A stretch of DNA of 40,034 nucleotides from Acidobacteriota bacterium. Its GTDB lineage: Bacteria; Acidobacteriota; Thermoanaerobaculia; Gp7-AA8. The number at the start of each line of letters is the position of its first letter. Position 1 is the stretch's first letter. Positions 5,031 through 40,034 of this stretch are shown here, one piece after another. The stretch is taken from assembly GCA_021781455.1 (NCBI GenBank), contig JAJXWV010000019.1, forward strand, positions 1-40,034. The letters run 5' to 3'. Below the pieces are notes generated by a model, which made no database searches, was not told the DNA's origin, and was given only the letters and a program-made list of their open reading frames with translations. The translations under genes and the position numbers were made by a program.

Positions 5031-5600
5031 CTACTCGTGCATGTCGAGTGCGAAGACGTTCCCGATGGCCCAGATGCCGTTGCGGTTGCCGAGCGGGATC
5101 CAGTACCACTGCGACTCGCGGCCGCCGAGGGAGTAGCGGCCGAAAAGGCCGGCCTCGTTCTTGGTGAAGGGATTGACGAACGGGGAGGAGAGCTCGACCA
5201 CCATGAGGTCGACGTGGCGCACCGGATCGATCTTGTCGATCGGGATCCATGAGCACGTTTTCGCATTGGCGACGTCGATGGGCATCGGCCTGAGGGAAGC
5301 GCTGATGACCTGGGCGGCTGCGGAGAGCTCTGCGTCCTTGCTGTAGAGATGCGCCAGGGAGCGGAGCGAGTTGCCGTTGACCAGCGGTTGGGTGGTCGAG
5401 ACGATGCCCATCGGCGTGTCGGAGGCCATCCCTTCGCCGCGAAGCTTTCCGCAGAACGAGTCGACGATCGCCGGCGGCAGCGTCGTCCAGTCGGGGGCGG
5501 CCATCGGCGCTTGCGGTTTGGATGCGCATCCAGGCAGCAGCAGGATCAAGAACAGACCGCAGACCGCAGACCGCAGACCGCCAGCACGACTGTTGATCAT
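5031..5600 (-). CDS. Small predicted lipoprotein, function unknown
   Basis: A 189-aa protein with an N-terminal signal ending in the lipobox LLPGC (Cys25), so it should be lipidated and anchored in the envelope. I chose the ATG at 5600 because AGGAAG lies 5 nt upstream and it places the hydrophobic segment at the N-terminus; an upstream in-frame ATG at 5762 would bury it. The mature part contains the segments WTTLPPAIVDSFCGKL, SLGGRESQWYWIPLG and NGIWAIGNVFALDM and matches no family I can name. The hydrophobic part of the signal (about residues 8-15) is encoded by four CAGACCG heptads read in reverse. The codons for the start of the gene are partly duplicated at 5710-5739. Confidence 0.75.
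   Translation of the reverse strand: MINSRAGGLRSAVCGLFLILLLPGCASKPQAPMAAPDWTTLPPAIVDSFCGKLRGEGMASDTPMGIVSTTQPLVNGNSLRSLAHLYSKDAELSAAAQVISASLRPMPIDVANAKTCSWIPIDKIDPVRHVDLMVVELSSPFVNPFTKNEAGLFGRYSLGGRESQWYWIPLGNRNGIWAIGNVFALDMHE
5553..5580. repeat. CAGACCG x4 heptads within a signal-peptide coding region
   Basis: Four perfect consecutive copies of CAGACCG lie inside the lipoprotein gene. Because 7 is not a multiple of 3, each unit is read in a different frame and yields the peptide GGLRSAVCG. Confidence 0.9.
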
Positions 5601-5771: not shown

Positions 5772-5848
5772 TTCCGTCTTCCGTCTTCCGTCTTCCGTCT
5801 GCCGTCTGTGGTCTGTGGTCTGTGGTCTGTGGTCTGTTGTCTGTGGTC
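5772..5848. repeat. Eleven-unit drifting heptad array
   Basis: Eleven consecutive heptads fit T(T/G)NNGTC: TTCCGTC four times, TGCCGTC, TGTGGTC four times, TGTTGTC, TGTGGTC. Unit identity changes stepwise along the array while phase is kept exactly. It lies between the helicase stop (5875) and the lipoprotein start region. Confidence 0.9.
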
Positions 5849-14405: not shown

Positions 14406-14468
14406 ACTCAGTACTCAGTACTCAGTACTCAGTACTCAGGACTCAGGACTCAGGACTCAGGACTCAGC
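14406..14468. repeat. Nine-unit heptad array with block change
   Basis: ACTCAGT four times, ACTCAGG four times, then ACTCAGC once. The blocks of identical units suggest stepwise amplification. It begins at the exact end of the MITE-like element and ends 45 bp before the thymidine kinase start. Confidence 0.9.
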
Positions 14469-19651: not shown

Positions 19652-19686
19652 CTACCCGCTACCCGCTACCCGCTACCCGCTACTCG
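19652..19686. repeat. Heptad array CTACCCG
   Basis: CTACCCG four times then CTACTCG, ending 6 nt before the RNase R start codon. A partial inverted partner, GGTAGCG, is at about 19630. The leader of rnr is therefore made of repeat and has no Shine-Dalgarno sequence. Confidence 0.85.
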
Positions 19687-24642: not shown

Positions 24643-24749
24643 GAGTGCTGAGTACTGAGTGCTGAGTACTGAGTAAAACCTGCCGAGACGCCCACTCAGC
24701 ACTCAGCACTCAGTACTCAGCACTCAGTACTCAGCACTCAGTACTCAGC
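24643..24749. repeat. Inverted heptad array with conserved loop
   Basis: The left arm alternates GTGCTGA and GTACTGA (24645-24674). The right arm has eight ACTCAGC/ACTCAGT units (24694-24749). The loop begins AAAACCTGCCGA, nearly the same as in the array at 26993-27068. Confidence 0.9.
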
Positions 24750-27092: not shown

Positions 27093-27530
27093 ATGCCGAA
27101 GGTGACAGCCGATATCCCGAACGAGCTTTCGCGCCAGATCGACCGGATCATCCGAGACGGGTGGTTCCCCGATCAGGAGACCGTGCTGCGCGAGGCCCTC
27201 GCGCATTTCGTGGAAGCGAAGTCGTTTCTCGGCGACTCGCCGCGCATGCTGCACCGCTTCGCTGCCGACGCCCTGAATGACTCCAAGCCCGAGGTGGCCT
27301 TGAAGTTCGTCAGCCGAGCCGTGTCGTTGCTGGCCGGCCGCGACGTCACCGATTTCACGCTCTATCAGTCCCTCATCGAGCTTCGCGTGCAGATCCTGCT
27401 GGTTCTCGGCCGGGACAACGACGCCCTCAGCTCGCTCGAGGAGGCGCGGGAAATGCTTCCCAACAACCCGTCGATCCTCAAATGGATCGAGAAGCTCAAC
27501 CGGCAGCGCTTGACGAGTCCTGAGTCCTGA
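27093..27530 (+). CDS. Ribbon-helix-helix protein with TPR-like C-terminus
   Basis: A 145-aa cytoplasmic protein. Residues about 3-42 (VTADIPNELSRQIDRIIRDGWF, then QETVLREALAHFVEAK) match the CopG/ParD-type ribbon-helix-helix DNA-binding fold. Residues about 55-138 form helix pairs resembling tetratricopeptide repeats (ALKFVSRAVSLLAG, LYQSLIELRVQILLVLGR, ALSSLEEAREML). The gene sits between the MoxR-like ATPase and the VWA gene on the same strand and could regulate the module or serve as an adaptor. The stop TGA lies in a heptad unit, and the last residues SPES are encoded by repeat sequence. No toxin gene is adjacent, so an antitoxin role is less likely. Confidence 0.7.
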   Translation: MPKVTADIPNELSRQIDRIIRDGWFPDQETVLREALAHFVEAKSFLGDSPRMLHRFAADALNDSKPEVALKFVSRAVSLLAGRDVTDFTLYQSLIELRVQILLVLGRDNDALSSLEEAREMLPNNPSILKWIEKLNRQRLTSPES

Positions 27531-27665
27531 GTCCTGAGTCCTGAGTCCTGAGTCCTGAGTCTTGAGTGGCGAGTGGCGGACGCTTGCTCCGGAATTTCTA
27601 CTCAGTACTCAGCGCTCAGTACTCAGCACTTCCCACTCAGGACTCAGCACTCAGGACTCAGGACT
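27514..27665. repeat. Large compound heptad array
   Basis: The left arm has about seven GTCCTGA-type units (27515-27567). After 32 nt come ACTCAGT/ACTCAGC/GCTCAGT units (27600-27630) and then, after TTCCC, ACTCAGG/ACTCAGC units (27634-27665). The array spans the end of the RHH gene and reaches within 4 nt of the VWA start. Confidence 0.9.
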
Positions 27666-35396: not shown

Positions 35397-35424
35397 TACG
35401 CGATCCTGGCGAAGCGGATTTGAA

Positions 35425-35497
35425 GTCCTGAGTCCTGAGTCCTGAGTCCTGAGTGAGCTCGTTTTGCTCAGGACTCAGGACTCTGGACTCAGCACTC
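35425..35497. repeat. Inverted heptad array
   Basis: The left arm is GTCCTGA four times (35425-35452). The right arm starts near 35466 with ACTCAGG, ACTCTGG, ACTCAGC units. It lies between the exporter start and the stop of the dienelactone hydrolase. Confidence 0.85.
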
Positions 35498-36396: not shown

Positions 36397-36645
36397 ATGA
36401 CCAGAGATGACATCTCCGGACTTGCCAAGAGAGCGCACTGCCCACGGTGCGATCTCAACAAGACGATCGGAACCGCGCTGTGCCGAAGCTGTCGCAGCAA
36501 GCTTCCGGCGCACATGCGGCTGGCCCTGGAGGGGATCCCGAACAAGGAACCGTGGGCGGTCAGCCGGGCCATGCGGGCTGCGGCGAACTACTTCAACGTC
36601 CACTTCCAGTCGGTCCGGAACTTCGGCGGCGGTAAGAAGCGCTAG
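36397..36645 (+). CDS. Small zinc-ribbon-like protein
   Basis: An 82-aa protein with two C-x-x-C pairs (HCPRC near residue 14 and LCRSC near residue 29) that could bind one zinc ion. The rest is helical and ends basic (RNFGGGKKR). GGAAGG lies 5 nt before the ATG. I recognise no family; by shape it could bind nucleic acid or a protein partner. Its last 53 bp overlap the 3' end of the convergent anti-sigma-like gene, which is unusual and supports the possibility that one of the two ends is extended. Confidence 0.65.
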   Translation: MTRDDISGLAKRAHCPRCDLNKTIGTALCRSCRSKLPAHMRLALEGIPNKEPWAVSRAMRAAANYFNVHFQSVRNFGGGKKR

Positions 36646-38146
36646 CGAGCTCGGCCAGCTCGTGGGCCTTGCGGTCCAGCGGTTGCTGCCGGGCCAGTTC
36701 CTCGGCACGCCGGGCCACGTCTGCCCCGCCAGTGGAGCTCTTCAGGGACTCGCCCCAGATTGCGCCGAGTGAGGCCAGGCGATGGCGGCGCGAAGCGTCG
36801 AGCCAGGCCCGGTCGAGATCGGCGAGGCGGAGCACGATTCGGAGCGACTGCTCACGTCCGGTGTTGCCATCGCGATAAGTCAGGCGAGCCGTCACGACCT
36901 TCTGCCGGTTGCGCAGGCTGGGGCGGAGGACGATCTCGTAGAGTGCGGTGACGGAGGTGTTCTTCAGCACGACGCGCTGCGAGGCGGTGAGCGAGGCGGC
37001 TCCTCCGATGAGCCGCTCCGTGGCGACCGCGTTGTCGTCGAAGGTGATCGTCAGGTTGGCGTCGGTCGCTGCAACCGGCGCGTCCGCCGCAGCGCTGAAC
37101 GGCGTGTCGATCGTGACGCGCACGATTCGCGTGCGCGGCGTGGCCAGCACCGGCGGCGGAGATCCCTCGACCTGAAGCGACAGGCGCTTCGGTGATTCTT
37201 CGGGGATCCCGGCGAAGTAGTTGACGATTGCCTCGATGTTGACATCGGCCGGCTGCTCGCCGCGCTGCACCGCTGTGCGCACGGCTTCGATAGCGGCGGG
37301 ATCAGTCGAGATGCCGAACATCGACGGGGCGATCGACCGGGCCACGGCCGATCGTGGGATGGCGATCACGGCGTCATTGGCGATTTTCGATTTCGCAGAA
37401 GGAAACCCCGGCTCGGAGCCGCCGACGACACCGCCCTCAGCCGCAGCGGGAGCCGGCTGTAGCGCACGTTCCACGTGGTTTTCGATGACGGCCGGTGCGG
37501 AAGCCGTGACTGTGATCGTCTGCGGCCGGGCGGTGGGTTGCGCCACGACCTTCGGAGCGGCGCTCGACGCAGCTGAAGGAGGTGGCGGCGCAGCCGCGGC
37601 ATTGAGCTCACGGGTTTCCGGGGCGGTGCCCGCAACGAGGTCCCGCGACGCGGGCGTCGCCTCTTCCTTCGTTTGCGCGCGGTCGGCACGCTCGCTCCGC
37701 TGGTCATCCTTCTTGAGACTTGCGGCGCCGGATTCGGGTGCGAAGCTCGGCGCGGCGGCGACCCGGGGCGGTTCGGGCGATGCGGCAGGAGTCGGGAGCG
37801 GCGGCGCTTCCGCGGTGAGAGCCGGTTCTTGTTCTGGCGCCCGCGGCGTTCCACGATCGTCCGTGATGCTCTTTGCAGCGCGTGCGGCCATCGAGGGCGC
37901 GCCGGGTGCCTCGTTCATCGGCGCGCGAGAGAGAAGGCGCACCCCCAGGTACGCCGAGGCGATCACGAGAAGGAGTGAGGCGGCAATGCGCATGCTCGCG
38001 CCACTCCACCACCGGGCAGCGGGACGAGGATCGCCGATCGATTGCGGGATGTCGCGCTTGATCCTCGACGCCAGATCCGCCGGCGGCCTCGGCACGGACG
38101 TCATCGACAGCTTCCGCTGCAGCTCGGCTTTTCGGTTGGTGTTCAT
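36593..38146 (-). CDS. Anti-sigma-like membrane protein fused to YfbK-type domains, VWA missing
   Basis: A 517-aa single-pass membrane protein. About 50 cytoplasmic residues are followed by one membrane helix (about 52-71, MRIAASLLLVIASAYLGVRLL), then a long Pro/Ala/Glu-rich linker to about residue 270. Next comes a segment like the N-terminal domain of YfbK-family VWA proteins (MFGISTDPAAIEAVRTAV, then NIEAIVNYFAGIPEESP near residue 300), and then directly a segment like their C-terminal DUF3520 (NLTITFDDNAVATERLIGG, VTALYEIVLRP, VVTARLTYRDG). The VWA domain expected between the two is absent. The start overlaps the ECF sigma gene stop by 4 nt, so it is probably the cognate anti-sigma factor or sensor. 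Function is inferred from position. Confidence 0.72.
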   Translation of the reverse strand: MNTNRKAELQRKLSMTSVPRPPADLASRIKRDIPQSIGDPRPAARWWSGASMRIAASLLLVIASAYLGVRLLSRAPMNEAPGAPSMAARAAKSITDDRGTPRAPEQEPALTAEAPPLPTPAASPEPPRVAAAPSFAPESGAASLKKDDQRSERADRAQTKEEATPASRDLVAGTAPETRELNAAAAPPPPSAASSAAPKVVAQPTARPQTITVTASAPAVIENHVERALQPAPAAAEGGVVGGSEPGFPSAKSKIANDAVIAIPRSAVARSIAPSMFGISTDPAAIEAVRTAVQRGEQPADVNIEAIVNYFAGIPEESPKRLSLQVEGSPPPVLATPRTRIVRVTIDTPFSAAADAPVAATDANLTITFDDNAVATERLIGGAASLTASQRVVLKNTSVTALYEIVLRPSLRNRQKVVTARLTYRDGNTGREQSLRIVLRLADLDRAWLDASRRHRLASLGAIWGESLKSSTGGADVARRAEELARQQPLDRKAHELAELASASYRRRSSGPTGSGR

Positions 38147-38718
38147 GGCAGTCCCTCGTCGAGCTTCGCCTCGAGCAACGAAAAGGCCTTGTGCAGCCTC
38201 TTGCGGATGGCAACGGTCGTGATCCTCTCGATCGTGGCAATCTCCTTCACCGCCAACCCGCCCCAGAAGTGTGCCGTCACCGTGAACCGCAACTCCTCGG
38301 GCAGCTGGAGCACTGCCGCGCGAAGCCTCTCCGCCTCCTCATTCGCGGCGAGCACCTCGCCCGCATTTGGCGCCGGATCAGCCGGATCCGGCGCGTCGCC
38401 GTCATCGAGCGAGCTCGTCCGCCGCGGCCGCCGGATGGAATTCAGAAAAGTCGTGTACGCGATCCGGTACAGCCAGGTGAACAATTGCGAGCGGCCGTCG
38501 AACCCCGGCAGCGCCGCCCATGCCTTCTGATACGTTTCCTGTGTCAGGTCGGCCGCCGCATCGGCATCGCCGCACAGCCGGCAGAGCGAAGCGAACACGG
38601 CCGAGTAAGTCCGGTCGACCATCTCCTCCGCGGCGGAGCGATCGCCGCCGCGGATCGCGGCGAGAAGTCGGCGCTCATCACCGGGCGGCGCCATTGCGCC
38701 GTTGGCCTCCGTCGCCAT
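38143..38718 (-). CDS. ECF (sigma-70 family) RNA polymerase sigma factor
   Basis: A 191-aa transcription factor. Sigma region 2 covers about residues 15-95 with the DNA-melting segment DLTQETYQKAWAAL and FTWLYRIAYTTFLNSIRR. After a short acidic linker, region 4 (about 130-185) has LPEELRFTVTAHFWGGLAVKEIATIERITTVAIRKRLHKA. There is no extra C-terminal domain. I chose ATG 38718; ATG 38694, which has GGAGG 11 nt upstream, is an alternative that removes eight residues. Translation of the anti-sigma-like gene is coupled through a 4-nt overlap. A typical ECF promoter for autoregulation was not identified in the 200 bp upstream. Confidence 0.9.
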   Translation of the reverse strand: MATEANGAMAPPGDERRLLAAIRGGDRSAAEEMVDRTYSAVFASLCRLCGDADAAADLTQETYQKAWAALPGFDGRSQLFTWLYRIAYTTFLNSIRRPRRTSSLDDGDAPDPADPAPNAGEVLAANEEAERLRAAVLQLPEELRFTVTAHFWGGLAVKEIATIERITTVAIRKRLHKAFSLLEAKLDEGLP

Positions 38719-38840: not shown

Positions 38841-38908
38841 GGCTCTTGGCTCTTGGCTCTTGGGCTGGCTTGTTCCCCAAGAGCCAAGAGCTAATACCCA
38901 AGAGCCAA
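38841..38908. repeat. Inverted heptad array GGCTCTT
   Basis: GGCTCTT three times (38841-38861) is followed, after a GGGCTGGCTTGTTCC spacer, by CCAAGAGCC, AAGAGCT and, after a break, CCAAGAGCC (38877-38907). It lies in the leader of the DUF1684 gene and ends 3-4 nt before its GGAGG ribosome site. Confidence 0.85.
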
Positions 38909-38920
38909 AACGGAGGAACG

Positions 38921-39829
38921 ATGAAACAAGCGATTGCCCTTGGATTGCTGCTTGTGGCAGCAGGATGTCAGCGCATGGAATCCGCCCAAACGCCGAACGA
39001 GCAGCAGGAGATCCTGAGCTGGCGGGCACGCCGGATCACGAGCCTCAAGGCGCCCGATGGCTGGCTGTCGCTCGTCGGACTGCACTGGCTGGTCGAAGGT
39101 CCGAACAGCCTCGGCTCCGATCCTTCGAACACGATTGTCCTGAAGGCCAAAGTGCCGCCGCATCTCGGGACCCTGGTCCTTGCGAAAGGGATGGTCACAC
39201 TCGAGCCAAACCCGAGCGCAGGCCTGACGATCGGCGGAAAGCCAATGGCCGCGGCAGCGGTGCTGATCCCGGACACCGATCCGAAGGGACCGACCGTGGT
39301 CGAGGTCGGGACGGTTGGCTTTCAGGTCATCAAGCGGAACGAGCGATTCGGATTGCGGGTGAAGGACAGCGAGAGCGAGGCGCGGACTCATTTCCGCGGC
39401 ATCGACTACTTTCCGATCGACGCGAAGTGGCGCGTCGAAGCGCGGTTTGAGCCGTTCAATCCTCCGCGCCACATCAACATGCCGAACATCCTCGGCATCA
39501 CCACCGACGAGATCGCGCCCGGCCTCCTCGCTTTCACAATCGACGGAAAGGAGTACCGCGTCGAGCCGATCCTGGAGGAAGGGACGAAGGACTACTTCAT
39601 CGTCTTCAAGGACGCCACGAGCGGGAAGGAAACTTACGGCGCCGCGCGATTCGTCTACGCGCCTCCGCCCGACAGGGAGGGCCGCACCGTGATCGACTTC
39701 AACAAGGCCTACAACCCGCCTTGCGCATTCACACCGTTCGCCACCTGCCCGCTGCCGCCGCCGCAGAACCGCCTGCCGTTCCGCGTCGATGCAGGGGAGA
39801 AGAAGTACGCGGGAGGGCACGAGGAGTGA
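38921..39829 (+). CDS. DUF1684 lipoprotein
   Basis: A 302-aa exported protein with a signal peptide ending in the lipobox VAAGC (near residue 16), so it should be membrane-anchored. The body matches DUF1684: WRARRITSLKAPDGWLSLVGLHWL, then GRKP-type strands, RTHFRGIDYFPIDAKWRVEARFEPF, and the C-terminal DFNKAYNPPCAFTPFATCPLPPPQNRL with two cysteines, the hallmark tail of the family. GGAGG 4 nt before the ATG fixes the start. The biochemical role of DUF1684 is not established. It is divergent from the ECF sigma gene. Confidence 0.9.
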   Translation: MKQAIALGLLLVAAGCQRMESAQTPNEQQEILSWRARRITSLKAPDGWLSLVGLHWLVEGPNSLGSDPSNTIVLKAKVPPHLGTLVLAKGMVTLEPNPSAGLTIGGKPMAAAAVLIPDTDPKGPTVVEVGTVGFQVIKRNERFGLRVKDSESEARTHFRGIDYFPIDAKWRVEARFEPFNPPRHINMPNILGITTDEIAPGLLAFTIDGKEYRVEPILEEGTKDYFIVFKDATSGKETYGAARFVYAPPPDREGRTVIDFNKAYNPPCAFTPFATCPLPPPQNRLPFRVDAGEKKYAGGHEE

Positions 39830-39832
39830 CGA

Positions 39833-39881
39833 GTGCTGAGTGCTGAGTGCTGAGTGCTGAGTGCTGAGTCCTGAGTCCTGA
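39833..39881. repeat. Heptad array, single orientation
   Basis: GTGCTGA five times then GTCCTGA twice, starting 3 nt after the DUF1684 stop. No inverted partner is seen before the window edge. Confidence 0.9.
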
Positions 39882-39947
39882 GCGGCCTGCTCTGCACTGC
39901 TACTAGCCCTTAACCAAGCGAAGTAGAGAGGCGAAGAAAACAGAAAA

Positions 39948-40017
39948 ACTCGAAAAGCCCTGTGTTTCAATTGTTGGTGTCAACAAACGAGTGAAACATG
40001 GGGAGGGCTTTTCGAGT
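39948..40017 (+). promoter_or_regulatory. Long hairpin enclosing the ribosome site of the edge gene
   Basis: Three nested perfect stems are 14 bp (39948-39961 with 40004-40017), 7 bp (39963-39969 with 39992-39998) and 6 bp (39971-39976 with 39981-39986), with a GTGT loop. The GGGAGGG ribosome site (40001-40007) and the first two bases of the GTG start at 40016 lie in the right side, so folding should block initiation unless something opens it. It could alternatively be the subterminal hairpin of a mobile element. Confidence 0.6.
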
Positions 40018-40034
40018 GAAAGCGATCGTACGCC
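40016..40034 (+). CDS. Start of a gene cut by the window edge, possibly zinc-type alcohol dehydrogenase/quinone reductase
   Basis: Only six codons are visible, reading M(GTG)-K-A-I-V-R. GGGAGGG sits about 8 nt upstream. Medium-chain dehydrogenases often begin MKAIV, which is the only basis for the family guess. An ATG at 39998 in the same frame is an alternative start. Confidence 0.35.

Follow-up and report, generated by a model that had tools for sequence, protein, structure and literature searches.

Insertion sequences must avoid being activated by the genes they land in, and a leader that blocks read-through is known from a few laboratory elements. In IS10 and IS50, RNA reading into the element folds over the ribosome site of the transposase gene, and the RNA that the element itself makes is without the 5' half of this fold. 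For IS200, from a group lacking terminal inverted repeats, a published account describes a leader stem-loop that occludes the ribosome binding site and a second stem-loop that ends incoming transcripts (PMC3196728). For ISPpu9 of Pseudomonas putida, the published report describes a 5' leader of the transposase mRNA that folds over the ribosome site; the structure is present on the element's own mRNA, weakening it raised translation, and an antisense RNA was proposed to open it (PMC8450116). Here we analyzed a hairpin at the right-hand edge of a 40,034-nucleotide stretch of an Acidobacteriota genome (hereafter the window), and we consider it quite probable that this hairpin is the transposase leader of an IS1380-family insertion sequence, proof against read-through.

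The hairpin itself is confirmed. A perfect outer stem of 14 bp joins positions 39948-39961 (5' arm) to positions 40004-40017 (3' arm) on the + strand, and the loop between them (39962-40003, + strand) contains a 7-bp stem (39963-39969 with 39992-39998), which was read from the sequence and not itemised as such by the stem listing that gave the outer stem, and a 6-bp stem (39971-39976 with 39981-39986) that encloses GTGT at 39977-39980. The nested stems around GTGT described earlier from the letters alone (termed here the sequence-only reading) are hence present at 39948-40017. The 105-nt fold has a predicted energy of -41.9 kcal/mol as compared to -22.96 +/- 3.5 for shuffled sequences (z -5.4), and none of 200 shuffles folded as well; in the minimum-energy fold the inner part is paired a little otherwise than as three distinct stems. 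On the + strand, a GTG codon at 40016-40018 is preceded, across a nine-base spacer, by the Shine-Dalgarno sequence GGGGAGG (40000-40006), which according to sequence and fold is split between a bulge and the outer stem. As the sequence-only reading had proposed, the stems reach the ribosome site and the edge of the GTG: the outer stem spans the 3' part of the Shine-Dalgarno (40004-40006) and runs on to the second base of the start codon. Prediction and comparison both place the Shine-Dalgarno and/or the start codon of the window in pairing with the upstream arm. An in-frame ATG at 39998, absent from the earlier description, also lies inside the hairpin. In five of the six relatives listed for comparison of in-frame starts (L027, L029, L030, L031 and L033), no in-frame start other than the equivalent of the GTG was found downstream of the preceding stop and ahead of the conserved protein; going by these relatives, we favour GTG over ATG 39998 as the likely start codon.

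A Shine-Dalgarno and a start codon paired in the fold are also what an RNA thermosensor of the transposase gene would display, and such a function had been suggested for this hairpin. The outer stem is however predicted to remain closed up to 75°C, the unpaired probability of 40004-40017 rising from 0.014 at 37°C to only 0.049 at 75°C, with no opening in the physiological range. An Rfam scan of the hairpin returned merely weak miRNA- or snoRNA-type matches far under the gathering scores, and none to a thermometer. The thermosensor was rejected on these grounds and is extremely unlikely. No terminator-like site was found in a scan of the leader region.

The end of the window is the end of its contig (C11, in an assembly of 90 contigs), which stops within the element. 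The last 127 bases (39908-40034) occur in four identical copies in this genome, each of them at a contig end. The upstream boundary of the four copies is sharp: ahead of 39908 they have in common little beyond CTAG or CTAA followed by one variable base. In the window this target site (39903-39907, no strand assigned) is CTAG with C as the variable base, and the other copies in the genome have CTAGA, CTAGT and CTAAG at this position. We infer that a repeated element whose interior was not resolved by the assembler explains the four contig-end copies. Left ends at contig ends are the only parts of the element present in the assembly of this genome, in which the right end was not found and the transposase interior gave no match. 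The exact hairpin pattern was also absent from the genome_contigs and viral_contigs collections, both of which may omit records of this genome. Three of the 18 family genomes searched, that of the window included, have a match; G009 carries five copies, likewise all at contig ends, and G016 a complete copy inside a contig (L021).

Many short tandem arrays of 7-base units (GAGTGCT, GAGTCCT, ACTCAGT, GGCTCTT, CAGACCG and others) are scattered over the window, at 5553-5580, 5772-5831, 14406-14461, 19652-19679 and 24693-24713, and further on at 27515-27556, 35424-35451, 38841-38863 and 39831-39882. Both the window element and the copy on contig C35 closely adjoin GAGTNCT arrays. The gene directly upstream of the element (38921-39829) codes for a protein of the DUF1684 type (PF07920, 161.9 bits). 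Past it, on the other strand (36593-38712), there are an ECF-type sigma factor (the part scanned being 38143-38712) and a protein with a weak, sub-cut-off von Willebrand-type match.

From the repeats and from its similarity to the complete G016 element, the segment 39908-40034 (+ strand) was assigned to a multicopy insertion sequence of the IS1380 family, as its left end. The ends of the G016 element form an inverted repeat that is 25 nt long, a few flanking bases counted in, and matches at 84%, and the left terminal inverted repeat of the window copy (39908-39924, + strand) aligns with the left end of this element, whose ends are complementary. The G016 element has a hairpin at the position equivalent to that of the window, and its open reading frame runs through the GTG equivalent to GTG 40016. 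The G016 transposase starting at that GTG (P0001) scored 251.4 bits against NF033539 (cut-off 180), above the family cut-off for IS1380, and 82.7 bits against PF13701 (cut-off 34.7). The window contains just six whole transposase codons (40016-40034, + strand, cut by the contig end), which encode V K A I V R and align with V K K I V R of P0001. The gene leaving the window, which the sequence-only reading proposed to identify by extending to the right, is thus recognized at its contig-end start through homology to the start in G016, and is probably an IS1380-family transposase, identified by its start alone.

The hairpin does belong to a dispersed repeat (four copies), a possibility raised against the start-site interpretation, and that interpretation survives because the repeat is an insertion sequence with its own gene. 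The sequence-only reading had also offered the end of a hairpin-type mobile element as an explanation. The mobile-element end was borne out by the four copies and the IS1380 homology, whereas the hairpin type was contradicted by the inverted repeats, the CTAG sites and the DDE transposase; an element of the IS200/IS605 HUH/Y1 hairpin type was rejected since the relatives have a DDE transposase and terminal inverted repeats.

Relatives were gathered from a scan of named genomes, of which the best 80 of 285 were kept, and from a search of the phylum that contributed seven loci (87 altogether). In the phylum, 23 of 396 genomes match the transposase, many weakly or partially. Judged by the titles of their records, the best 80 of 285 comprise 47 of planctomycete type and 10 with acidobacterial names, the others including Verrucomicrobia, Actinomycetes, Nitrospirae and proteobacteria; nearly all relatives come from metagenome bins, in which repeated elements can be mis-binned. 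L064, L131 and L133 had no start and were left out, and the start of L115 was set by hand, giving 85 leaders with the window; L036, L066 and L086 lacked upstream sequence, leaving 82, and removal of near-copies brought the set to 76. The start codon is GTG in 78 of the 85 leaders, window included. The left end was matched in 60/65 loci with enough sequence and the right end in 42/60, and the 38 elements with both ends measure 1.81-1.95 kb. Both ends of these 38 adjoin YTAR plus one variable base, and an identical tetramer, mostly CTAG, is found on both sides in 34 of them; the relatives thereby display the terminal inverted repeats and the short flanking target repeat of IS1380 elements. The layout is CTAG-N-CC...GG-N-CTAG, with one variable base per side between the CTAG target and the ends (38 relatives, L027 to L134), and these outer variable bases are complementary in 10 of the 38 pairs only.

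For each leader, the best pairing of the start region (-22..+3) with upstream sequence (-110..-26) was compared to dinucleotide shuffles. In 72 of the 76 non-redundant leaders (window and relatives) it was matched by at most 5% of the shuffles, and in 51 of the 76 by none of 200. Of the exceptions, L098 is borderline (0.07), and L058, L059 and L069 lack a hairpin at the start chosen for them, a choice that may be mistaken. In a control, one of 23 Shine-Dalgarno genes from the flanks beat all of 40 shuffles. Ten distant rows from the phylum, whose machine-chosen starts may be wrong, included four at p <=0.05 (L044, L052, L053 and L054, the first two on one contig). Pairing scores summed to 2609 when each arm was matched to its own partner and to 1793 +/- 36 when partners were swapped, with a maximum of 1918 in 2000 swaps; the arms therefore fit their own partners and do not merely share sequence. 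One close relative, L057 (64% identical), has another hairpin with a shorter loop, in which the Shine-Dalgarno is covered and the start codon is not: the arrangement is kept with a different sequence.

Compensatory changes, which the sequence-only reading proposed to look for in relatives, were found. In a MAFFT alignment of 71 leaders, 85.6% of cells are paired as compared to 74.2 after shuffling, a percentage favoured by cutting the 71 rows on hairpin anchors, for which shuffles and slides serve as control. Two-sided changes affect 117 cells of this alignment versus 43.3 shuffled, none of 500 shuffles reaching as high, and are found at 11 of the 14 pairs; the signal is lost when the partner is slid by one to three columns. 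On the protein tree, the pair at -2 gave 6 independent contrasts on supported branches, 5.9 of them in the expected direction and none against (median p 0.03, range 0.03-0.06), and two other pairs gave 4 and 2 contrasts, too few for the tree test. Homology and co-variation together support the sequestering of a real start site. That the palindrome arose by chance, has no role in expression and is retained just because the element repeats would agree with the four identical genome copies, which are silent on selection; its conserved position and the co-variation of its arms over many relatives run counter to this idea, to which we attach next to no credence.

The distance between the arms falls into clusters at 57-61 (7 leaders), 67-73 (57), 78 (2) and 89 (1), counted over 67 leaders drawn from the window, L027-L033 and L056-L135. 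The clusters lie about 10 nt, roughly one DNA turn, apart, and the tree shows 5 changes of spacing class. Such a periodicity would suit arms that act at the DNA level, as half-sites through which the transposase or a repressor loops the promoter region, RNA pairing being a by-product. The conserved arm core (GAAA with TTTC) fits this explanation, and so does the count of G-U pairs against A-C mismatches (29 vs 34), which shows no G-U excess, is confounded by bulges and register, and means that co-variation alone does not prove the + strand RNA to be the selected form. However, pairing with two-sided changes extends past the core into the Shine-Dalgarno, and leaders that differ in sequence still have their 3' arm on the ribosome site. 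A z below -2 was obtained for each of the 71 full hairpins, and the loop taken alone outdoes its shuffles too (mean z -1.68, below -2 in 27/71). Of 68 loci, 14 have a further occurrence of the 7-mer core (CTCGAAA/TTTCGAG) in the 1.9 kb that follow the start, at scattered positions. We give DNA half-sites a small chance of being the correct explanation.

The 5' arm also carries sequence resembling part of a promoter. Among 71 leaders (L057, L058, L059 and L069 being set aside and L087 having no anchor), a -35-like hexamer in the 5' arm reads TCGAAA in 45 and CTGAAA in 11; its counterpart in the window is TCGAAA at 39950-39955. A -10-like hexamer, defined by at least 4/6 matches to TATAAT, follows at exactly 17 bp in 26/71 leaders (shuffles: mean 3.5, maximum 9 in 1000), the remaining single offsets between 8 and 31 giving 8 leaders at most. 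With 16-19 bp allowed, the count is 39/71 (shuffles: mean 12.6, maximum 22). Medium-spacing leaders have the -10-like hexamer in 33 of 57 cases, that is in 19/20 at low G+C and 14/37 at higher G+C. The short-loop leaders, to which the window copy belongs and whose loop is about 10 nt shorter, have none at 16-19 bp (0/7), and a scan of both strands of 39800-40034 gave no consensus promoter.

A promoter start between the arms would mean that the element's own mRNA lacks the 5' arm and that read-through RNA has both. We calculated the cost of opening the start region (-16..+3) for 73 leaders (L058, L059 and L069 not included): it averages 18.2 kcal/mol with both arms and 6.5 for a transcript assumed to begin at -40, and is lower by at least 5 without the 5' arm in 69/73. 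When the 5' part was shuffled, once per leader, the opening cost was 7.5, and no leader (0/73) reached as high a cost as with its real sequence. These costs suggest that own RNA should be translatable and RNA read through from a host gene should not. When transcription from a host promoter runs into the element, the 5' arm of the resulting RNA would pair with the Shine-Dalgarno and the start codon and translation would be blocked. In many relatives, the -35 box of a promoter of the element's own would lie in the 5' arm and the -10 box in the loop; the mRNA from it, beginning some 40 nt ahead of the start codon, would be devoid of the 5' arm and could be translated. The hairpin would in this manner uncouple transposase supply from transcription of the landing site. 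Formation of the fold in RNA, its blocking of ribosomes and use of the promoter are inferences. For the window copy, structure and conservation support blocked read-through; an inner promoter is not recognisable in it, which leaves the other half of the scheme unproven. Where the 5' arm doubles as -35 box, loss of the arm would also be loss of the promoter, which could help retain the device.

Short-loop elements, having no recognisable inner promoter, would be silent unless something opens the hairpin, and a regulated switch, whether its opener is an antisense RNA, a protein of the host or some other signal, has a precedent in ISPpu9 (PMC8450116). Against a switch, neither a consensus promoter on either strand of 39800-40034 nor a known RNA family was detected, in scans that were local while a partner could be encoded elsewhere, and an inner promoter would account for expression in many relatives. 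The sequence-only reading had named a trans-acting translational switch, for which no candidate was found. We hold a regulated switch to be improbable and retain the leader that blocks read-through as the preferred explanation.

Distant members of the family were compared in the same spirit. Twenty plasmid-borne IS1380 members were tested; five of them came from a search with P0001, to which they are 23-25% identical, and the environmental subgroup as such is about 23-25% identical to the plasmid members it finds (9 records). The test paired -25..+3 with upstream sequence at annotated starts, made 20 tries uncorrected and did not require coverage of the Shine-Dalgarno. On these terms, pairing reached p <=0.05 in nine of the twenty (two from Rhodococcus and one each from Mycolicibacterium, Priestia, Streptomyces, Enterococcus (IS1678), Gordonia and Azotobacter, together with ISAzs3) and p between 0.05 and 0.08 in four more; the remaining seven, including ISEcp1, ISKpn23 and IS1677, gave p of about 0.1 or above. 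A broader reading would make the start-site hairpin a control at the level of the IS1380 family, kept or reinvented in several phyla in spite of large sequence change, with short-loop lineages having lost the inner promoter and needing a trans factor or a rare RNA end. We regard this as unlikely. If it were true, the short-loop hairpin, that of the window included, would be a real switch requiring an antisense RNA, a protein or a rare RNA end.

No description of a leader hairpin in IS1380 elements was found in the titles and abstracts listed, among them 25 of 63 IS1380 papers, in a search that covered few subscription journals and is weak evidence of absence. The present element resembles the IS1380 family in its transposase (DDE, above the NF033539 cut-off in the complete relative) and in ends that begin with CC and end with GG beside a short repeat on both sides; it differs in that the ends of this subgroup adjoin CTAG and in its start-site leader hairpin, not seen in ISEcp1, for example. 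With IS200 it has occlusion of the ribosome site in common, but its relatives possess terminal inverted repeats and no terminator-like site was found in it. With ISPpu9 it shares a leader folded over the ribosome site, whereas in ISPpu9 the structure is part of the mRNA made by the element itself and an antisense RNA is the proposed opener. The leader arrangement is the same as that of IS10 and IS50; these belong to another family of insertion sequences and are unrelated in sequence, and here the 5' arm also provides a -35-like box in many relatives. The mechanism is of a known kind, and its conservation across an IS1380 branch, with an arm that doubles as -35 box, looks new. A device that would shield transposase supply from read-through is here backed by strong comparative evidence from an environmental IS1380 branch, on contigs assigned to several phyla.
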